Source: Lysobacterales bacterium (GTDB taxonomy: Bacteria; Pseudomonadota; Gammaproteobacteria; Xanthomonadales; SZUA-5). Taken from it: DNA of 40,384 nt. The notes beneath the pieces are model-generated. The model was not told where the DNA came from. It did not search any database and worked only from the letters and a program-made list of their open reading frames with translations. This document shows positions 27,488-39,629 of the stretch, one piece after another. Where the stretch lies: the NCBI GenBank assembly GCA_019187485.1, contig JABAQR010000051.1, forward strand, positions 1-40,384. The letters run 5' to 3'. Every line of letters begins with the position of its first letter. Positions within the stretch are counted from its first letter, which is position 1. The position numbers and the translations under genes are program-made.

Positions 27488-29524
27488 TCAAGCCTCACGC
27501 GGCAGGAAAAAGAACTCGCTGCCTTCGTGGCCGGCATGTCGCAGTGCCGAGTATTGCGGCCGCTGCGGCAGGCGGGCGATGGCGGAACGCTGGCTCACCA
27601 GTTCGGAAACCTCTTCGTATAGGCGATAGCCCTCGGCGAGTCCATCTGCCTGCTTCAAGGCAGTCAGGAAGGCGTGGGCGAAAATCGAGTGCCCGCTGCC
27701 GCCGTCGTCGAGCACCGGTTGCAGCCCGCCGGAAGTGATCACCGTGCGCGCCTTGACGCGCGAGATGAACAGCAGGTCTTCTTCCTTGGCGTCCAGCGGG
27801 ATCGGCCGGATCGCGTTGCCGGACATCGTGCCGGAGTAGCAGGAATCGGCGACCACCATCACATGCTTGGCCGCCGAGGCGCCGAGGTAGTCGTTGATCT
27901 GGTCATTCGCGATCCAGCTCTTCGGGTCGTCGCTGCGGCCGTCGGCCGGGATCCAGTAACCCTTGCCCTGAGCGTCGATCTGGCCATGGCCGGCGTAGTA
28001 GATCAACAGGTTGTCGGTCTTTTTCATCGCCATCGTGATCTCGGCGAGCTTGGCGATGATCGCCTCGCGGCCGACGTTGGTGAGCTTGCTGACCTTGTAG
28101 CCGTAGTGCGTCTGCAACTGCTCGGCGACCGCATCCGCATCGGCCACGGCGGTCTTCAATGCTGGGAAACCGGTGTAGGCGTCATTGCCGATCACCAATG
28201 CGTGGAAACTGCCGAGGTCGTCGCGCATGCGCCGCTGGAAGAGCTTGCTGGTGACGCGCTTGGCCGCCGCAGCGCCACCGCGATCACGGGTGATCAGGAA
28301 ACTCTCGATGGCGCTCATGCCATCGTCCGTGACCGCCTGGATCTCGACCGGGGTGTCGCCGGCGGCGAGATCGAGGTCGATCTGGAACAAGCCGTCGCCG
28401 TCGACCTGCTCGCGCACGTCGCGATCGTTGATCTTGAGCGCCTTCAGGCTCTGCGCCGGATAGACGCGGCCGATCACCTGGTAGCTCGGGACCGCGGCCA
28501 GCAGTGGCGCCGCGAGCACGCCGCTGCGGGTGGTGACCAGCTTGGGTGCGATCAATTGAATCTTCGGCTGGGTGCCAGCCGGCGCCGGGCCGCGCTGGCT
28601 CATGTCCACACCCATCATCGTCAGCACTTTCTCGGACTCCGCGCGCGACAGCTCGACCGCCCGTTCCTTGTCGGCGACCTGTTTCTCCAGCTCGGAGATG
28701 CGCTGCATCGCCTTTGCCGCGCGCGCCTGGTCGCTGGCGGCGGAACGCAGTTCGGCCCGCGCGCCGTAGAGGTCCTCGCGGGTGCGCTCGAGTTCGGCCT
28801 TCTGCTGGCTCAACTGGGCGCGCGATTGCTCGAGCTGGCCGCGCAGGCGCTCGACCTCGCCGCGCAGGCGTTCGGTCTCCGCGGCGGCGGCGCGCCGGCG
28901 TGCCTGTTCTTCCTCGGTGACCAGTTCGAGTTCGCCACCCTTGAGGCCGGACGCCTTGCGGTACCAGTTCATCGCCTGGGTCATGTCCTGGCCGACGCCA
29001 CGACCGGCTTCGTAGAGGCTGCCGAGGTTGATCATCGCCCCGGAGTGTCCCTTGTCGGCGGCCTTGCGGAACCATTCGGCGGCGGTCGCGTAGTCGGGCG
29101 CGACGCCGAGGCCCTGTTCGTAGATCTCGCCGACATAGTTCATCGCATTGACGTCGCCTTCCTTGGCGGCCGGCAACCAGACCTTCAGCGCGGTCGCGTA
29201 GTTGGCGCGGTCGAAAGCGACATACTCGCCGCCGCGGATGGCGCAGTCCTTGGCGGTAGTCCGGATCGGCCGACGCGCCGACAGATAGGTGAAGTTGCCA
29301 CCCAACTGGCGCACCTGCCCGGGCAGCAGACAGTCGACGATGGCCAGATCCTCGGCGCTGACCGCACCCTGCGGCAACTCCACTTTTTTCGCCGCCAGCA
29401 GCGAGCCGCTACCGAGCAAGGTCACCGCAATCGCGCTGCCCAGCGCCAGCGCCAGTCGCCGCCAGCCGCGCGCCGATGCGCCAAACCGGTCAATACGGAA
29501 TTGTCGTGGGGTGCATTGCAGCAT
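27488..29524 (-). CDS. Exported caspase-like protease with Sel1 repeats and coiled coil
   Basis: A 678-aa protein. An N-terminal hydrophobic segment (LALALGSAIAVTLLGSGSLLAA) predicts export, probably to the periplasm, either cleaved or anchored. Residues about 108-198 hold Sel1-type TPR repeats (NAMNYVGEIYEQGLGV; GAMINLGSLYEAGRGVGQD). About 205-310 form a long charged coiled coil. A beta-rich linker follows, and the C-terminal peptidase C14 domain starts near residue 470. The catalytic His513 is in IYYAGHGQ and Cys562 in VVADSCYSGT, 49 residues apart as in metacaspases, so the protease looks active. The ATG at 29524 has GAGAGGAGC upstream, only 13 nt after the stop of the autotransporter gene, so they form an operon. 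Substrate unknown. Confidence 0.92.
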   Translation of the reverse strand: MLQCTPRQFRIDRFGASARGWRRLALALGSAIAVTLLGSGSLLAAKKVELPQGAVSAEDLAIVDCLLPGQVRQLGGNFTYLSARRPIRTTAKDCAIRGGEYVAFDRANYATALKVWLPAAKEGDVNAMNYVGEIYEQGLGVAPDYATAAEWFRKAADKGHSGAMINLGSLYEAGRGVGQDMTQAMNWYRKASGLKGGELELVTEEEQARRRAAAAETERLRGEVERLRGQLEQSRAQLSQQKAELERTREDLYGARAELRSAASDQARAAKAMQRISELEKQVADKERAVELSRAESEKVLTMMGVDMSQRGPAPAGTQPKIQLIAPKLVTTRSGVLAAPLLAAVPSYQVIGRVYPAQSLKALKINDRDVREQVDGDGLFQIDLDLAAGDTPVEIQAVTDDGMSAIESFLITRDRGGAAAAKRVTSKLFQRRMRDDLGSFHALVIGNDAYTGFPALKTAVADADAVAEQLQTHYGYKVSKLTNVGREAIIAKLAEITMAMKKTDNLLIYYAGHGQIDAQGKGYWIPADGRSDDPKSWIANDQINDYLGASAAKHVMVVADSCYSGTMSGNAIRPIPLDAKEEDLLFISRVKARTVITSGGLQPVLDDGGSGHSIFAHAFLTALKQADGLAEGYRLYEEVSELVSQRSAIARLPQRPQYSALRHAGHEGSEFFFLPREA

Positions 29525-29537
29525 GTCAGTGCTCCTC

Positions 29538-32500
29538 TCAGAACTCGAATCTCGCGCCGACGTTGACGGTGGTCTGGCTGAGGCCTTCGACACCGACGGT
29601 CTGGCGCAGTTGCAGATAGGCCTGCTTGCCGTTGGCAAGAATGTACACAAGACCGAAACCGACGCTGCCATAGCTCTTGTCGGGGTCCTCCGGGCGCAGG
29701 CGGAAGAAGTCGCCAGCCTCGCCCCCGACATAGCTGGCATCGATGACGGTGTCGTCGTTGCCGGTTTCCTGGTTCCACGCGAGGTCAAACTGCGGCGTCA
29801 GCACGCCGTTCGACAGGCTGATCACGCGCGAGACCTGGAGGCCGGCGCCAAACACCATCGACTTCACCGTCTGGTCGCTGTAGCGGACCGCGAAATCGCT
29901 GTCGGATTCCGAGAAGCCGTCGACGCTGCTGTGCATGTAGCGCACGAATCCGCTCGGCGTGAACGTCCAGGCACCGCGGCTGATGTGGTGGCCCACGCTG
30001 GCCGCGAAAGTCAGCTGCGAGGCGCTGGTGTCGCCGTCCAGGAGTTCGTCGAGGGTGAAGCCGGTCAGGTTGACGCGCACGCGGCGCGATTGTTCGAGGT
30101 CGATGTCGGCCCACGACAGCCGGGTGTCGACGTAGGTGCTGTCGTTCAGGTACCAGGCACTGAAGCCGGTCAGCGTGAAGCCGCTGGTGTCGAGCGCGCC
30201 GCCATCGGTCAACGAGGACTCGAAACGGTTGTAGCCGATCGCGCCGCCAAGCACCCAGCGCGCACTGCGCCGGTAGTCGATGCCGGCCGTCACGGCCACC
30301 GAATCGAAGTCCTGCACGACCTCGCGGTCATTGCCCTCGATCTCCTGGTCGCCACGGCTGATGCTGCCATTCACGAAGAAACCCCACGGGCTGATGAGCT
30401 CACCCGTGCCACCGATCTCGGGTTCGTCCGCAGAGGCGAACAAGCCCTGCAGCAGACCGAGCGGGATCGCCTGGCGGCCGTTGATGATGGTCAAACCGGA
30501 GAGGCTGACGCCGCCACCACCGCCACGCAGCTCCGCCAGGCGCGCATCGATGTTGAAGGCCTGCGCCGTGCCGAGTTGGTTCAGCGAAGCGTGGTGCGAC
30601 AGCACTTCTTCGGGGTACAGCGCGCGCAGGGCCTCGGCGACCGCCGCATCGTTGTGGTTGGCGGCATCCCCGAGCAGGGCGTCGCAGAGCGCTGAGACCC
30701 GCCCGGACGAGGCATCGCACAGGCGCACTACCGGACCGACGGCATCGCCGGCGATCGGATCGCGGCCGAGGCCGGACTCCAGCAGTTCCTCGGCGATCGT
30801 GCCAGTCGGCGTTTCCACCGCCGTGCTCTGCGAGGCGCGGTTGTTGGCCGTCACCGGATCGCTGGTCGCCGATTCGACCGTGGCCTCGTTGGTCACGCTA
30901 CCGGCCGTGTCCGGCGCGGTCACGGTCACGACGACGCTGAGTTGCTGGCCGGCCGCCAGTGGCGCAGCCGCGGTGCAAACGACATTGGCGCCGCCGGCGC
31001 AGGCCAAACCGCTGCCCGCGGCGGAGACGAAGCCGAGCCCGGAAGGCAGCGGATCGCGCACAACGACGCCGCTGGCCGCAGCCGGCCCGATGTTGCGCAC
31101 CGTCAGCGTGTAACTGAACTGTGCGCCGAAGGACACCGGGTCGGTGCTGTCGGTCTTGGCGATGCTGAGATCGGCACCCTGGGCCGCTGGCGTCACCCCG
31201 ATATGGACGGTGCTCGCATTGTTCGGTGCCACCGGATCGGGCGTGGTCGACGAAGCTGTCAGGCTGGCCGACACGCTGTTGCTGGCGGTGGTCGCGATCA
31301 GCGCCTGCAACTGCAAGGTCACCGCGACGCCCGGGGGCAGCGAGCCACCGTGGCAGTCGAGCGCGCCGCCGCTGGCGGTGCAGGTGAAGCCGGAACCGCT
31401 GCCAGACTCGAGGACCAGCGCGCCATTCGGCTGTGCCAGCAGACGCACCGCCGCCGCCGGCCCGGGGCCGAGGTTGCGGATGGTGGCACTGATGTCGACG
31501 CGCGTGCCGGCCGCCGCCGAGGCCGGCGCGGTCGCGCTGATGCTGAGGTCGGCAAGATTTGCAGCGGGCTGGATGGTGGTCGACTCGCTGTCGCTGTTGT
31601 TGGCCTGCACGGGATCGCTGATGGTGCCGAAGACGCTGGCGGTGGCGCTCACCGTGCCACCGCCGCTGGCGCGCGCACGCAGCCGCAGCAGCGATTCGGT
31701 CCCCGCAGCCAGCGAGCCGCCGAGGTTGCATTCGACCGTGCCGCTGCCCTGACAGGCCCAACCCTGACTGCCGCTGCCCAGGGAAGTCACCGTCGCCGGG
31801 AGCACGAAACTCACGCGCACGCCGGCGGCCACGTCCGGTCCGAGGTTGCGCACCCGCGCCTGGTACTCGAAATCGGCGTCGGAGACGACCGGATCGACGC
31901 TGTCGGACAAGTCGATCGACAAGTCGGCGGTCGGCAGCGGCGTGCCGCCAGTGACCGTCAGACTTTCGGTGACCGCAACCGGCGCGACCCCGGATGCGCT
32001 CGCTTCGGCGCGGTTGCTGTACGTGCCGGCCGACTGCGGACGTGTTTCCACGACCACACTGCTGCTGGCGCCACGCGACAGCGCATCGCGCCGGCAACTG
32101 ATGCGAGCGCCCTCGACCGAGCAGGTCCAGCCCTCGCCGCTGGCGGCGACGAAATCGAGACCCGCCGGCAGGTCGTCGATGAGCACGAGGTTGGCGGCAT
32201 CGACTTCACTGGGATTGGTCACCGTCAGGTCGAACAGCGCGTTGTTGCCGAGCGTCACACTCGGGCTGCGCGCACGCTTGCTGAGCGTCAGCGCCCCCCC
32301 TTCGACGACCGTGGTGGTCGCCGTGCCGGCGGCGCCGGCGGAGTTCTGCGACGAGGACACCTGCGCGGTGTTGGTATGGATGCCGGCGGTCTCGGCGCTC
32401 ACGCGGATACGTACCGCCGAGGACGCCGACGGCGCGAGCGTGCCGATGAGCGTACAAGTGATGGTGGCTCCGGCCGTTGCTGGCCCGGTGCAGGACCACC

Positions 32501-34304
32501 CGCTGCCGGTGAATCCCTGGAAACTCATCGCCGACGGCAAGGGATCGACGATGCGCACACCGGTCTGGCCGACGTTGCCGGAATTGGTGACGGTCAACAC
32601 GTAATCGAAGGTCGCGCCGCGCGCAACCGGATCGACGCTGTCGGACTTCAGCAGGATCAGGCCGGTCAGCGCGGCGCTGACACCGACCGCCAGATTGGCA
32701 GTGTTGTTCGCGCTGCTCGGATCAAAGCTGGCCGCGGACGCCAGTGCGTTGAAAGCGAAGGGCCCGCCGGGCGCGTTCGGCGCGGTCAACGTCAGACCGA
32801 ACACATTGCCGCTGCCACTGCCGAGCGATGAACGCTGGCAACTGACCGTCTGGCCCGACAGCAGGCAGGTCCAGCCGGCGCCGCCCGAGAGCACGCCGAT
32901 GCCGAAGCCGGTCGGGATCGTGGCATCGACATTGACATTGGTGGCGGCGTCCGGCCCCGCGTTGCTGGCGTTCAGGCTCACACTGAAGCTCTCGCCGGCA
33001 CCGACCGTCGACGGGCCGCTCCAGGCCACACCAATGTCGGCACTGCTGCGAATGTTGGCGACCGCGCTGCCACTGTTGTTGGATGGATTCGGATCGGGCT
33101 CGGCGGCGCTGACCGTCGCGGTGTTGTTGACCGCAAAGGTACCGTTGACCGGGTTGTCGAAAACCACCACCAGATCGATGGGCGGGGCCGACTGGCCGAT
33201 GCCGAGCGAGCCGCTGAAGCTGCAATTGACCGTGGCGCTGCAATTCCAGCCGGAACCACTGGCCGATTGCAGCGTTAGTCCGGCCGCCAGCGGGTCGCTG
33301 ACCTGGATGGAGCTGGCCGTCTGCGTGCTGGCGCCGGAGTTGCTGACCACCAGCCTGAAGGTGAAGGGCTGACCACGCGGCACCGGTTGGGCACCGATCA
33401 CGGTCTTGCTCAATGACAGGTCCACCTGTGTCGGAGGCGCCGCACTGACCACGATGCTGGAACTGGCATTTGCGGGTGTCGGATCGGGCACCTGCGAGTT
33501 GGCGTTGAGTGCCAGCTGCGCGGTGCCTACGGCGGGTCCGGCAACGCCGTTGATCACGATCGGTGCCGCATTCACGCCGCTCGGCAAGGTTCCGGAGGGC
33601 GAACCGCCGAGGTAGCTGCAACTGATCGCGCCGTTGCTGTGCAGGCAGTTCCAGGCGGAAGACACCGAGAAACTGCTGAACACGATGGCACCGCTCAGAT
33701 TGCCGGACACCTGCACGCCGGGCGCCGCCGCGGGACCGCTGTTGCCTACATTCGCGGTGAAACTGATCGGATTGCCGACCGTGGCGGACGCCGAACTCGG
33801 CACGATCCCGAGTGTCAGGTCGGCGTTGCTGGCGACCACCTGGGTGGATTGCTGGATACTGTTGTTGTTGGAGGGATTGATGTCGGTGGAATCGGTGCTG
33901 GCCGAGACCGTGATCTGAACGGTCTGCGGCGAACCCGGCGCGGTGAAGCGCAAGGGCAGCGGCGGCGCGCTGCCTGGGGGCAGATCGCCGCTGGCGAGTG
34001 CGCAGGAAATGACCGTCGACACCGAACAGATCCACCCCGGGGTCGAGGGCGGCAAAGACGACAGTTGCGGGCTGTAGAATACCGACACCGCGACGTTCAG
34101 CGCTGTTGCCGAACCCGCGTTCGAGACGTTGATGTTGTACTGCACCTGCTGACCGACCACCACCGGATCCGGACTGTCGCTGGTGCTCACCACCAGATCC
34201 ACCTGGGCCAGCGCCGGCGTACTCGTCATCGCTGCCAGCAGCAGCAAAGCCCAGATCCACCTCCCAATCCGCGTCATACCCATCCCCAGCCGACGTCGAT
34301 TCAC
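29538..34304 (-). CDS. Giant autotransporter with nine DUF11-type repeats
   Basis: A 1588-aa type Va-like secreted surface protein. A signal peptide (WIWALLLLAAMTSTPALA, cleavage near residue 33) is followed by nine Ig-like DUF11 repeats of about 117-136 aa (residues about 34-1171). Typical openings read ADLSIAKTDSTDPVSFG, with GWxC before a second Cys. Every repeat keeps a close Cys pair. A linker (about 1172-1300) with LYPEEVLSHHASLNQLGTAQ is typical of autotransporter junctions. The C-terminal barrel (about 1300-1588) ends in NVGARFEF with terminal Phe, the outer membrane insertion signal. The GTG at 34304 has GAGGA 4 nt upstream; an ATG at 34277 is an alternative. The caspase-like gene follows after 13 nt. 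Ligand unknown. Confidence 0.92.
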   Translation of the reverse strand: MNRRRLGMGMTRIGRWIWALLLLAAMTSTPALAQVDLVVSTSDSPDPVVVGQQVQYNINVSNAGSATALNVAVSVFYSPQLSSLPPSTPGWICSVSTVISCALASGDLPPGSAPPLPLRFTAPGSPQTVQITVSASTDSTDINPSNNNSIQQSTQVVASNADLTLGIVPSSASATVGNPISFTANVGNSGPAAAPGVQVSGNLSGAIVFSSFSVSSAWNCLHSNGAISCSYLGGSPSGTLPSGVNAAPIVINGVAGPAVGTAQLALNANSQVPDPTPANASSSIVVSAAPPTQVDLSLSKTVIGAQPVPRGQPFTFRLVVSNSGASTQTASSIQVSDPLAAGLTLQSASGSGWNCSATVNCSFSGSLGIGQSAPPIDLVVVFDNPVNGTFAVNNTATVSAAEPDPNPSNNSGSAVANIRSSADIGVAWSGPSTVGAGESFSVSLNASNAGPDAATNVNVDATIPTGFGIGVLSGGAGWTCLLSGQTVSCQRSSLGSGSGNVFGLTLTAPNAPGGPFAFNALASAASFDPSSANNTANLAVGVSAALTGLILLKSDSVDPVARGATFDYVLTVTNSGNVGQTGVRIVDPLPSAMSFQGFTGSGWSCTGPATAGATITCTLIGTLAPSASSAVRIRVSAETAGIHTNTAQVSSSQNSAGAAGTATTTVVEGGALTLSKRARSPSVTLGNNALFDLTVTNPSEVDAANLVLIDDLPAGLDFVAASGEGWTCSVEGARISCRRDALSRGASSSVVVETRPQSAGTYSNRAEASASGVAPVAVTESLTVTGGTPLPTADLSIDLSDSVDPVVSDADFEYQARVRNLGPDVAAGVRVSFVLPATVTSLGSGSQGWACQGSGTVECNLGGSLAAGTESLLRLRARASGGGTVSATASVFGTISDPVQANNSDSESTTIQPAANLADLSISATAPASAAAGTRVDISATIRNLGPGPAAAVRLLAQPNGALVLESGSGSGFTCTASGGALDCHGGSLPPGVAVTLQLQALIATTASNSVSASLTASSTTPDPVAPNNASTVHIGVTPAAQGADLSIAKTDSTDPVSFGAQFSYTLTVRNIGPAAASGVVVRDPLPSGLGFVSAAGSGLACAGGANVVCTAAAPLAAGQQLSVVVTVTAPDTAGSVTNEATVESATSDPVTANNRASQSTAVETPTGTIAEELLESGLGRDPIAGDAVGPVVRLCDASSGRVSALCDALLGDAANHNDAAVAEALRALYPEEVLSHHASLNQLGTAQAFNIDARLAELRGGGGGVSLSGLTIINGRQAIPLGLLQGLFASADEPEIGGTGELISPWGFFVNGSISRGDQEIEGNDREVVQDFDSVAVTAGIDYRRSARWVLGGAIGYNRFESSLTDGGALDTSGFTLTGFSAWYLNDSTYVDTRLSWADIDLEQSRRVRVNLTGFTLDELLDGDTSASQLTFAASVGHHISRGAWTFTPSGFVRYMHSSVDGFSESDSDFAVRYSDQTVKSMVFGAGLQVSRVISLSNGVLTPQFDLAWNQETGNDDTVIDASYVGGEAGDFFRLRPEDPDKSYGSVGFGLVYILANGKQAYLQLRQTVGVEGLSQTTVNVGARFEF

Positions 34305-34742: not shown

Positions 34743-37700
34743 ATGTCGATCGATGCCCGCCGCAACGTCGTCGCACCCCGGTTCGGGCATCGCGTCTGGC
34801 TCGCCTGCCTGACTGCCTTGCTGCTGGCGGCCTGTCAGCCCTCTTCGCCACCCGCGGAACCGTCGGCCACTTCGACCGAGGCTCCGCAGGGTTTCGTGGT
34901 CAGTGCGATCACCGGCGAGGCCAGCGATGGGCGGCCGGCGCTGACGGTGCGCTTCTCGCAGCCGCTGGCGCCGGCGCAGGATCTGGCGGCGGTGCTGAAG
35001 GTGACCGACGCGCAGGGCAAGGCGGTCGACGGCGGCTGGGTCTTCGAGGACGGCTTGCGCGCGGTGCGTTTCCCGCACGTCAAGGCCGAGCAGAAGTTCA
35101 CCGTCGAGGTGCTGGCCGGCGTGGTCGCGGGCGATGGCAGCACGCTGGCGGAGGGCCTCAAGCGCGAAGTCGAGTCGGTGGACCTGCCGCCAGCAGCCGG
35201 CTTCGCCAGTCAGGGCAGCATCCTGCCAAGCCAGGGCACCGATGGCCTGCCGATCATCACCGTCAACGTGCCGGAGGTCGATGTCGAGTTCTACCGCGTG
35301 CGCCCGGCCGGCCTGCCGCGCTTCTTCGCCGAGTTCCAGGGTGGCGGCCGGCGCGGCTACTGGGGCCTGGACGAGTTGCGTGCGCTCGCCGACCCGGTCT
35401 ACCTGAACCGTTTCGTGGTCTCCGCCGGGACCAACGAACGCGTGACCTCGCACCTGCCGGTGCATCAGATCGAGGAACTGACGGCACCCGGCCTGTATTT
35501 CGCGCTGCTGAAGCCGACCGCGAAGTTCGACGGTGGCTACCAGACCACCTATTTCGTGCGCAGCAACATCGGCATCCACACGCGCGCCCATCGCGACGGC
35601 CTGCTGGTGCTGACGCGCGCGCTCGACAGCGGCGAAGCACTCGGCGGCGTGGAACTCGAAGTGCTGGACGAGAACGGCGCCGTGATCGCCAGTGGCAGCA
35701 GCGACGGCGACGGGTTGCTGAAGCTCGATTACCGCATCGACAGCCGTCACGTGTTGATCGGGCGTCGCGGCGAGCACCTTTCGCTGCTGGCCTTCAGCCA
35801 GCCGGCGCTGGATCTGTCGGAATTCGCGGTGGCCGGCAGCACCGCCGGCGAACTCAGCATCTTCCTGTGGTCCGGACGCGATCTTTACCGGCCGGGCGAG
35901 CCGCTGCGGGTGGCCGCGCTGCTGCGCGACTACGACGGCAAACCGCTGGCCGGCGCGCAGCCGCTGTTCGCCACGCTCAAGCAGCCGGATGGCCGCACCT
36001 ATGCGAGCATGCAGTTGCGCGCCGAGGACGGCGGCTACTACCTGTTCGACCGGGCGATGCCGGCGGACGTGCCGACCGGCCGCTGGAAGCTCGAAGTCAG
36101 CCCGGATCCGGCCGGGCAGCGCGCGGTGCACGCCTACGATTTGCGCATCGAGGAGTTCCTGCCCGAGCGCATGAAGCTGAACCTCGACAGCGCGCAGACG
36201 CGGCTGGCGCCGGGCGAAACACTGGAACTGGTGATCGAGGGCGCCTACCTGTACGGCGCGCCGGCGGCCGGCAACCGCTTCACCGCCAAGCTCGCCTATG
36301 CGGTGGACGCCGCGCCGGTGCCTGGTCTCAAGGACTATCGCTTCGGTGATCCGGTCAACCCACCGTCGGCGGAGCCGGTGGACGTGATCGACGCCAGCCT
36401 GGATGAGGCCGGGCGACTGACGCAGTCGCTCGCGCTGGAACCCGGCAGCATCAACGGGCCGATCGCGGTCAGCGTGATCGGCAGCCTGTTCGAGTCCGGC
36501 GGACGCCCGGTGTCGCGGATCCTGAAGCGCACGCTGTGGCCGGCCGGGCAACTGGTGGGCGTGCGCCCGCTGTTCGATCCGGAGAACCTGCCGAGCCAGC
36601 AGCAGGCTGCCTTCGAGGTGCTGAAGGTGGACGCGCAGGGCCAGCGCGTCGCCGCCAGCGGCCTGAAAGCGGTACTGGTGCGCGAGGACCGCGACTACAC
36701 CTGGACCTACGACGATTCACTCGGCTGGCGCGTGGATTACACCCAGCGCTTCGTCGAGATCGAGGAGCGCATGCTGGACCTGCCGGGCGAGACGCCCGCG
36801 CGGATCACTTTCGACGTCAACTGGGGACCATACCGGCTGGAAGTCAGCGACCCCGCCACCGGCCTGGTGACCCGCCTGCCCTTCACCGCGGGATGGAGCT
36901 ACGAGGACGACAACCGCGGCCTCGACGCGCGACCGGACAAGGTCAAGCTGGCGCTCGACAAGAGCCAGTACCGCGCCGGCGACACCCTGGAACTGACGGT
37001 CACGCCGCCGCACGACGGCCCCGGCCTGCTGCTGGTCGAGAGCGACCAGTTGCTGCTGCGGCAGCCCTTCGACGCACGCGCCGGCGGTGTGCTGAAACTG
37101 GCCGTCGACGAGCGCTGGGAACGCCACGACGTCTACATCACGGCGCTGGTGTTCCGCCCGGGTACCAGCAAGGACAAGATCACGCCCTCGCGTGCGGTCG
37201 GCATCGTGCACGTGCCGATCGACCGCCGCGAACGCACGCTGGCGGTCGCACTCGAAGCGCCCGAAAGGATGCGCCCGAACCAGCCGCTGGAAGTGCGCGT
37301 GTCGGTACCCGCGCTGGCCGGCCAGGACGCGCAACTGACCGTGTCCGCGGTCGACCAGGGCATTCTCAACATCACCGGTTTCCCACTGCCGGATGCGGTG
37401 AAGCATTTCTTCGGCCAGCGCCGCTACGCGGTCGAGGCTTACGACCTCTACGGACGCATCATCGAGGCGCTGGCCGGCGAGCGCGCGCGCCTCAAGTTCG
37501 GTGGTGACCTCGCCGTGCCTGGCCTGCCGCAGGCGCGCCGGCCGACCGCCAAGGTGCTGACCGTCGATCTCTACAGCGGCCGGGTCGCACTGGACGCGCA
37601 GGGCCAGGCGACCGTGCGCCTGCCGGTCCCGGATTTCAACGGCGCGCTGCGGGTCTCGGCCCTGGTGTTCGGGCCGGACCGTTATGGCTCGGCGAGCGCC

Positions 37701-39629
37701 GAGACCCTGGTGCGCGCGCCGCTGGTGGCCGAGGTCAGCACCCCGCGGGTGATGGCGCCGGGCGACCGCGCCACGCTCACACTGGATCTGCAGAACCTAT
37801 CGGGAGCGACGAGCGAGATCGAACTGCGCTTCGAGGCCGATGCGCCGATCGCCATCGGCGACGCCAGTCGCAAGCTGAAGCTCGCCGACAACGCGCGCAG
37901 CACGTTGCGTTTCCCGCTGAGCGCGCTCGGCGATGTCGGCATCGGCCGCTTCCGCCTGCACGCACGCGCCGGCGACGTGGAACTGAAGCGCGACTGGGAG
38001 ATTACCGTGCGCTCGCCGTACCCGAGCGAGCGCCGCGCGCGCCTGGAACAGTTGAGCGGCCCCGTCGCGGTCGACCTCGGTGTCGCCACCGAGGGCCTGC
38101 TGCCGGCCACCGTGCGCTCACGCGTGAGCGCGTCCACGCGCGCGCCGCTGCCGGTCGGCCGACTGCTCGGCGAACTACTCGAGTACCCCTACGGCTGCAT
38201 CGAGCAGACCACCAGCAAGGGCTATCCCTACGTATTGTTGGACGAGACCGGCGCCGCTGCCCTCGGGCTGCCACAGCCAGATGCGGACAAACGCCGCACG
38301 AACGTGCAATTCGCGATTGATCGCATCGCCTCGATGCAACTGGACAGCGGTCACTTCAGCTTCTGGCCGGGCAGCGGCGACTACTCCGATCCGCTGATCA
38401 CGCCCTACGTGGTCGAGTTCCTGCAGGACGCCGAGGCGGCCGGTTTCAGCGTGCCCGCTCGGGTGCTGCAAAAGTCGCTGGAACGCCTGCGCGAAGATCT
38501 GCTGTCGGGCGGCGTGGTGTCCTGGGAGCGCGTCTGGGGCGAGCCCGCCGACCACGTGCGGCTGGCCTTCAACGCCCACGCCGGCATGGTTCTGGCGCGC
38601 GTCGACCAAGCCCCGCTCGGCACCCTGCGCAACCTCCACGACAACGCCGCCGATCATGCCCGCGGCCCGTTGCCGCTGATGCGACTGGCGGTGGCGCTGA
38701 GGCTGGCCGGCGATGGCGAGCGCGCCGCCGCGGCTGCGCGGATGGCCTTCGGCAAGCCCTGGGAACGCGGCAACGATTACTGGGGCGACTACCTGAGCGG
38801 TCTCGGCGATCGCGCGGCGACGCTCGCGCTCGCTGCCCAACATGGCTTCCTGGACGACGCCGCGCGCGCGCGCGTGCTCAAGGTCGGCCAGGAGGCGCAG
38901 GGCACGCGCTGGATCGGTACTCAGGACTCGATCGCGCTGGTCAAGCTCGCGCGCGCGCTCGCCGGCAAGGCCGATGCGCTGTCCGGCAAGCTCGTGATCG
39001 GCGGCATCGAGGAGGGCTTCCACAGCAGCGGCTGGTTCACCCGCGACCTCGCCATCGCCGACCTCAACGCCGGCGCGCGCCTGGACATCGCCAGCAGCGG
39101 CTCCTTCTTCCTGGTGCAGGACACCGTCGGCATCGCCGCGCGGCCGCCGCAGGCGAGCGCCAACGGCGTCCGCCTGGATGTGAGCTGGCACCGCCACGAT
39201 GGCAGCGAGTTCCAGGGCGACACCCTCAAAGAGGGCGAAGGCCTGGTGGTGCACATCCGCGTCAACGCCAGCGAGCGTCTCGCCGACGCGCTCGTGATCG
39301 ACGCGCTGCCGGGTGGATTGGAGATCGAGAACCTCAACCTGATGGATAGCCGCCAGCTCGCCGACCTCGTGATCGCTGGCACCAATCTGGACGAGTGGCG
39401 CAGTTATTCGGCCAACGTACGTTTCCAGGAATACCGTGAAGACCGCTACGTGGCCGCGATTTCGCTGGAGGCGGGTTCTGCGGTGGACCTTTATTACCTG
39501 GTGCGCGCGGTCTCGCCTGGCGAATACCTGATCCCGGCAACCTTCGTCGAGGACATGTACCGCCCGGAATTCCGCGCGATCACGAGCACCCCGGTGGCGA
39601 AGCTGAAGGTGGTGCCGCCGGGGCCGTGA
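34743..39629 (+). CDS. Bacterial alpha-2-macroglobulin lipoprotein (YfhM-like)
   Basis: A 1628-aa periplasmic protease trap. The N-terminus is a lipoprotein signal with lipobox LAAC (Cys31) and Gln at +2, so outer membrane anchoring is expected. MG-type beta domains follow, including the GELSIFLWSGRDLYRPGEPL segment typical of bacterial A2M. The thioester motif is intact: YGCIEQTTSKGYPY with Cys1152 and Gln1155, needed to bond attacking proteases covalently, inside an alpha/alpha toroid domain (about 1120-1430). A receptor-binding-like C-terminal domain ends in ITSTPVAKLKVVPP. E. coli YfhM is 1653 aa. It is followed by pbpC, the conserved A2M-PbpC pair thought to guard and repair the wall after attack. 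The ribosome binding site is weak. Confidence 0.97.
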   Translation: MSIDARRNVVAPRFGHRVWLACLTALLLAACQPSSPPAEPSATSTEAPQGFVVSAITGEASDGRPALTVRFSQPLAPAQDLAAVLKVTDAQGKAVDGGWVFEDGLRAVRFPHVKAEQKFTVEVLAGVVAGDGSTLAEGLKREVESVDLPPAAGFASQGSILPSQGTDGLPIITVNVPEVDVEFYRVRPAGLPRFFAEFQGGGRRGYWGLDELRALADPVYLNRFVVSAGTNERVTSHLPVHQIEELTAPGLYFALLKPTAKFDGGYQTTYFVRSNIGIHTRAHRDGLLVLTRALDSGEALGGVELEVLDENGAVIASGSSDGDGLLKLDYRIDSRHVLIGRRGEHLSLLAFSQPALDLSEFAVAGSTAGELSIFLWSGRDLYRPGEPLRVAALLRDYDGKPLAGAQPLFATLKQPDGRTYASMQLRAEDGGYYLFDRAMPADVPTGRWKLEVSPDPAGQRAVHAYDLRIEEFLPERMKLNLDSAQTRLAPGETLELVIEGAYLYGAPAAGNRFTAKLAYAVDAAPVPGLKDYRFGDPVNPPSAEPVDVIDASLDEAGRLTQSLALEPGSINGPIAVSVIGSLFESGGRPVSRILKRTLWPAGQLVGVRPLFDPENLPSQQQAAFEVLKVDAQGQRVAASGLKAVLVREDRDYTWTYDDSLGWRVDYTQRFVEIEERMLDLPGETPARITFDVNWGPYRLEVSDPATGLVTRLPFTAGWSYEDDNRGLDARPDKVKLALDKSQYRAGDTLELTVTPPHDGPGLLLVESDQLLLRQPFDARAGGVLKLAVDERWERHDVYITALVFRPGTSKDKITPSRAVGIVHVPIDRRERTLAVALEAPERMRPNQPLEVRVSVPALAGQDAQLTVSAVDQGILNITGFPLPDAVKHFFGQRRYAVEAYDLYGRIIEALAGERARLKFGGDLAVPGLPQARRPTAKVLTVDLYSGRVALDAQGQATVRLPVPDFNGALRVSALVFGPDRYGSASAETLVRAPLVAEVSTPRVMAPGDRATLTLDLQNLSGATSEIELRFEADAPIAIGDASRKLKLADNARSTLRFPLSALGDVGIGRFRLHARAGDVELKRDWEITVRSPYPSERRARLEQLSGPVAVDLGVATEGLLPATVRSRVSASTRAPLPVGRLLGELLEYPYGCIEQTTSKGYPYVLLDETGAAALGLPQPDADKRRTNVQFAIDRIASMQLDSGHFSFWPGSGDYSDPLITPYVVEFLQDAEAAGFSVPARVLQKSLERLREDLLSGGVVSWERVWGEPADHVRLAFNAHAGMVLARVDQAPLGTLRNLHDNAADHARGPLPLMRLAVALRLAGDGERAAAAARMAFGKPWERGNDYWGDYLSGLGDRAATLALAAQHGFLDDAARARVLKVGQEAQGTRWIGTQDSIALVKLARALAGKADALSGKLVIGGIEEGFHSSGWFTRDLAIADLNAGARLDIASSGSFFLVQDTVGIAARPPQASANGVRLDVSWHRHDGSEFQGDTLKEGEGLVVHIRVNASERLADALVIDALPGGLEIENLNLMDSRQLADLVIAGTNLDEWRSYSANVRFQEYREDRYVAAISLEAGSAVDLYYLVRAVSPGEYLIPATFVEDMYRPEFRAITSTPVAKLKVVPPGP

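Follow-up and report, generated by a model that had tools for sequence, protein, structure and literature searches.

The window, the whole 40,384-nucleotide stretch of Lysobacterales DNA analysed here, carries two adjacent genes on its minus strand: an autotransporter gene (29538..34304; type V, 1588 aa, with PF03797 and nine DUF11 stretches) and a gene for an exported Sel1-caspase (27488..29524; Peptidase_C14, 678 aa, ATG at 29524). The 13-nt gap between them (29525..29537, minus strand), read directly as GAGGAGCACTGAC, includes a GAGGAG ribosome binding site spaced 7 nt from the ATG, and no terminator-like site was found between the two genes on the same strand. This pair had been described in an earlier note on the same DNA, and its coordinates, spacing, and ribosome binding site were confirmed, as were the Sel1 repeats, the coiled coil, and the intact His513/Cys562 dyad assigned to the caspase. 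It is the only caspase match in this genome, which is 99.5% complete. Flanking the caspase gene on its 3' side are DUF1249, a CsgG-family gene, and then SecD/SecF (plus strand); a longer operon including the DUF1249 and CsgG-like genes was considered and rejected, as only some close relatives retain them, and we place them outside the module. Upstream of the pair, and divergent from it, is a bacterial alpha-2-macroglobulin (A2M; 34743-39629), a protease trap whose thioester motif is GCIEQ. It is kept in all six window-family loci with enough contig and was not seen beside the pair among 18 wider order loci, and is thus regarded as local.

The autotransporter has the hallmarks of a classical type V protein, with a signal-like MTRIGRWIWALLLLAAMTSTPALA, a passenger, a C-terminal barrel, and an aromatic end (FEF). 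The open reading frame (34304..29538, minus strand) starts with GTG; translation may in truth begin at an in-frame ATG (codon 8 or 10) immediately 5' of the signal peptide. Its passenger (residues 35-1160; 30825..34202, minus strand) is composed of DUF11 (412 bits, nine stretches), with cysteine pairs ∼6 to 12 residues apart along the repeats, and the DUF11 domain is similar to the CLIPPER domain (fibrillar adhesin). The beta-barrel (residues 1310-1565; 29610..30377, minus strand) is identified both by PF03797 (146 bits) and by a predicted model, in which the C-terminus forms a barrel with a preceding helix, and for which AaaA and EstA of Pseudomonas aeruginosa (type Va) are nearest. These share the barrel and the helix but carry enzyme domains of their own, whereas the window autotransporter has a DUF11 stalk and is linked to an exported caspase. 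The helical linker preceding the barrel contains Arg residues and a Cys1196/Cys1207 pair (30684..30719, minus strand). The idea that this Cys-pair module serves docking or cleavage specifically in the partners was evaluated and discarded; autotransporters unlinked to caspases carry it too, and it is therefore no mark of partnership. Caspase-linked autotransporters range from ∼420 aa to >2,000 aa; the passenger varies and the barrel is constant. In many lineages, as at five loci (L040, L047, L054, L065, and L086), the paired barrels have little or no passenger and total only 420 to 560 aa.

The caspase is a multidomain protein, with all of its features on the minus strand. A signal sequence (approximately residues 1-45; 29390..29524) has an L-A-A cleavage-like site where most relatives have a lipobox, and is followed by a conserved N-terminal module (62-106; 29207..29341; motif DCLLPGQ...CxIRGGEYVA), two Sel1 repeats found by domain search (126-192; 28949..29149), a coiled coil or long helices (204-303; 28616..28915), a beta-strand domain (321-413; 28286..28564), and the caspase domain itself (431-678; 27491..28234), which has the His513/Cys562 dyad together with the S1-type residues Asp462 and Asp560. 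Topology prediction places a single hydrophobic segment at the N-terminus (residues 24-42), with no further transmembrane segment, in agreement with the export signal proposed earlier. A simple rule finds a lipobox in 48 of 72 caspases, and ∼52 (∼70%) have one if near misses are included (e.g., L026, L033, L037, and L073); the leaders of those lacking a lipobox are signal-peptide-like, and the window-family caspases have signal-peptidase-I-like sites in its place. A periplasmic or outer-membrane-anchored location is thus well supported as a prediction from these leaders. Alignment of the relatives shows that Cys65 and Cys94, close to the N-terminus of the mature protein, are invariant, which fits a periplasmic disulfide, if not proving one.

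The protease domain is readily recognized, with a Peptidase_C14 Pfam match of 71.7 bits at residues 441-660 (cut-off, 21.4). Both dyad residues are present in the window caspase, and among aligned relatives His513 is conserved in 42 of 42 and Cys562 in 40 of 42; all 42 also keep Asp462 and Asp560, of which Asp560 lies two residues ahead of the catalytic Cys. Among solved structures MALT1 is nearest to the predicted domain (Z 23.2, 2.7 Å over 206 residues), with metacaspase 4 nearly level (Z 22.1), and MALT1 also ranks first by phmmer, albeit with a weak match (E 0.003) in which Asp462 is aligned with a MALT1 Asp. The MALT1 paracaspase is thus alike in protease fold and S1-type Asp, but is eukaryotic and cytosolic and has other accessory domains. 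In para- and metacaspases the S1-type aspartates imply Arg or Lys at P1, and from the invariant Asp462 and Asp560 we infer the same preference here; the protein is probably a paracaspase-like protease that would cut after Arg or Lys. Three Halieaceae homologues (L067, L072, and L073) have Thr in place of the catalytic Cys, and L072 also has Tyr in place of His. These are likely pseudo-proteases, their loci keep a kinase neighbor and have no barrel nearby, and proteolysis thus appears dispensable in some lineages.

Conservation of the pairing was examined in two samples: a wide one, from a peptide-pattern scan with one genome per species, giving 71 caspase loci, and an order-wide one of 151 genomes from 64 genera, chosen without peptide patterns. 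Lack of conserved adjacency in related genomes had been named in the earlier note as grounds for abandoning the link; instead, a barrel gene lies directly upstream of the caspase in all nine window-family genomes. The caspase was found in 54 of the 151 order genomes, representing 23 of 64 genera, and a barrel gene adjoins it or lies within 3 kb at 39 of 42 order loci examined, with longer flanks added; two of the three exceptions (L122 and L156) have short flanks. Adjacency expected from autotransporter density is ∼0.4% per locus; as related genomes are not independent, a binomial value for the excess is not to be taken at face value. In the wide sample, 32 of 71 loci have a same-strand barrel within 5 kb and two more have one on the opposite strand; a Rokubacteria locus (L065), with the barrel just downstream of the caspase, is missed by the distance rule used for the count of 32.

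Gene order is variable among these loci. The window family has the autotransporter followed co-directionally by the caspase, an order for which gaps are ∼9 to 60 nt in several relatives; at others the two are divergent (L143-L145; L150-L153). The caspase precedes the autotransporter in Thiodiazotropha, Pseudoalteromonas, Aliikangiella, Crenotrichaceae, and Rokubacteria. The pairing spans four phyla, including Acidobacteriota, Thermodesulfobacteriota, and Rokubacteria, and this retention of neighborhood while gene order changes is the strongest evidence for a functional link. In the caspase and barrel trees the linkage is scattered over several lineages rather than confined to one clade, and co-inheritance of the partner barrels as one clade is rejected, as the linkage label requires 10 changes on the tree. 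We also note that three Thiodiazotropha loci (L059, L062, and L064) have near-identical barrels in tandem 3' of the caspase, and that L059 and L062 have one more autotransporter on the other strand. In L047 and L086 a further conserved gene comes after the caspase and autotransporter (for L086, DUF4384), and L047 also has a guanylate-cyclase-domain gene.

The two-gene picture in the earlier note was correct as to the pair but incomplete, having missed a transmembrane kinase. A Hanks-type Ser/Thr kinase (PF00069) is the commonest caspase neighbor in the wide set, lying within 5 kb at 47 of 71 loci, and in nearly all linked kinases the kinase domain is followed by a single transmembrane segment and then by a short C-terminal tail predicted to be periplasmic. 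Kinase, caspase, and autotransporter are together in Aliikangiella marina (L083), and one family of the order has the autotransporter and caspase followed by a convergent kinase just 3' (L135, L136, L138, L158, and L159); many other caspase relatives have the kinase and no autotransporter nearby. The kinase orthologue in the window genome is unlinked, on another contig (G000:C74:7254-8714), retains the transmembrane segment and tail, and is 57% identical over its full length to the L043 kinase, the next best kinase being 41% identical. With presence called at E below 1e-80, the kinase is in 32 of the 151 order genomes, none of which lacks the caspase (Fisher p 1e-18, with no correction for phylogeny). 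The window genome is itself kinase rich, with 29 matches to Ser/Thr kinases over its 3.8 Mb. An alpha/beta-hydrolase-like lipoprotein gene (∼270 to 300 aa) is divergent and directly 5' of the caspase at seven loci (L026, L049, L055, L059, L067, L073, and L083), and often sits between the caspase and the kinase.

Because the pair, often with the kinase, stays together in distant bacteria despite reshuffled order, it looks like an envelope signalling module. We give about even odds to the reading that barrel, periplasmic protease, and kinase constitute an envelope-spanning sensing and proteolysis module, and a surface sensor with a proteolytic effector is the best of the ideas raised earlier, although itself inferred. 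In such a module the barrel would sit in the outer membrane, displaying at the cell surface, in the window, a long DUF11 stalk; the caspase would be periplasmic (a predicted lipoprotein in most relatives), with its Sel1 repeats and coiled coil available for docking; and the kinase, with its short periplasmic tail, would be the third partner. A surface event may alter the barrel or its periplasmic part, upon which the docked caspase would be switched on and cleave a periplasmic target, and the kinase would pass the state into the cytoplasm. Several observations weigh against this reading, however: the kinase in the window genome is unlinked to the pair, the partner barrels are not one clade and their Cys-pair module is shared with unlinked autotransporters, many caspase loci (some within type VI secretion system [T6SS] clusters) have a kinase yet no nearby autotransporter, and the catalytic Cys is lost in the three Halieaceae homologues. 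A previously unrecognized and widespread transenvelope signalling cascade, in which the autotransporter relays a surface event to the periplasmic paracaspase and cleavage controls the transmembrane Ser/Thr kinase, is a tentative proposal that we think rather less probable than not.

It is also conceivable, if unlikely, that the caspase is a maturation protease, severing passenger from barrel in the autotransporter, or trimming it, to release or mature the stalk. The autotransporter-caspase operon order with its short gaps, the presence of protease and secreted substrate together in the periplasm, and the Arg residues in the window autotransporter linker are all consistent with this. An exported protease is similarly paired with a large surface protein in SphB1/FhaB-type maturation, but SphB1 is a subtilisin-like autotransporter, whereas the window protease is a separate caspase. 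Passenger cleavage, however, usually occurs in the barrel or at the surface and not in the periplasm, and loci with only the kinase retain the caspase without a nearby autotransporter. Moreover, as passengers vary from almost nothing to >2,000 aa and barrels with little or no passenger are still paired, passenger cutting is unlikely as a conserved or ancestral job; the earlier proposal that the protease processes the passenger is thus not supported as a general role.

Similarly improbable is that the caspase serves mainly as a periplasmic input or scaffold of a Ser/Thr kinase pathway, in the manner of the envelope Tag proteins that feed PpkA, with the autotransporter one client among several. 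Kinase linkage in the wide sample is broader than same-strand autotransporter linkage (47/71 versus 32/71), some homologues are adjacent to PP2C, FHA, and T6SS genes, and the Halieaceae homologues without the catalytic Cys keep their kinase neighbor. The T6SS threonine phosphorylation pathway (PpkA/PppA/FHA and Tag proteins) also resembles the proposed module in having a transmembrane Hanks kinase fed by envelope proteins, although to our knowledge a caspase is not a described component of it. In the window family, in contrast, the autotransporter is always linked and the kinase is unlinked, the T6SS marker PF05936 is in none of the nine genomes, on which T6SS was rejected as the system context there, and the dyad is intact in 40 of 42 aligned relatives.

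Bacterial caspases are known in defense, and the window caspase matches a generic PADLOC caspase profile (1.5e-11), but a cell-death or anti-phage effector exported by happenstance is very improbable. A cytoplasmic effector in a defense locus would be expected; we find a conserved export signal, a fixed autotransporter neighbor in the family, envelope or housekeeping genes among the flanks examined, and a caspase present in more than one third of the sampled order genomes. Chance neighbors or mere vertical synteny, for which the flanking genes common to close relatives (e.g., the divergent A2M) might speak, have a negligible likelihood and are already contradicted by persistence of the pair through changed orientation, order, and flanks across phyla.

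Bacterial caspases have been studied almost solely as cytoplasmic death, stress, and defense proteases, and if the module reading is correct, an envelope caspase family tied to barrels and transmembrane kinases would imply an envelope signalling role for caspases. The parts themselves are known. A survey of 671 prokaryotic caspase homologues reported Sel1 in 40 and, in 46, a single N-terminal transmembrane helix that may be a signal peptide; its main text does not mention autotransporters (Asplund-Samuelsson et al. 2012, PMC3501461). These orthocaspases (Peptidase C14) share the caspase domain and HC dyad with the window protein, as some do Sel1 or the N-terminal transmembrane segment; the window protein differs in its autotransporter and kinase partnership. 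A periplasmic caspase is by itself not new, exported homologues having been listed in 2012. No description of the autotransporter-caspase-kinase association, nor of C14 peptidases with T6SS, was found in the open-access literature searched, and the combination of autotransporter, caspase, and kinase looks to be undescribed. Cultured hosts such as A. marina are available for direct testing.

Outside the window family, some caspase relatives have T6SS genes, FHA, and PP2C around them, and Sel1-caspase lipoproteins at such loci may be an input, so far undescribed, from the envelope to the control of T6SS phosphorylation. Genes for Sel1-caspase lipoproteins are beside T6SS genes and a Ser/Thr kinase at seven loci (L034, L035, L044, L045, L068, L074, and L078), with FHA in L044 and L045, and TssM, TssK, and TssJ typed in L045.
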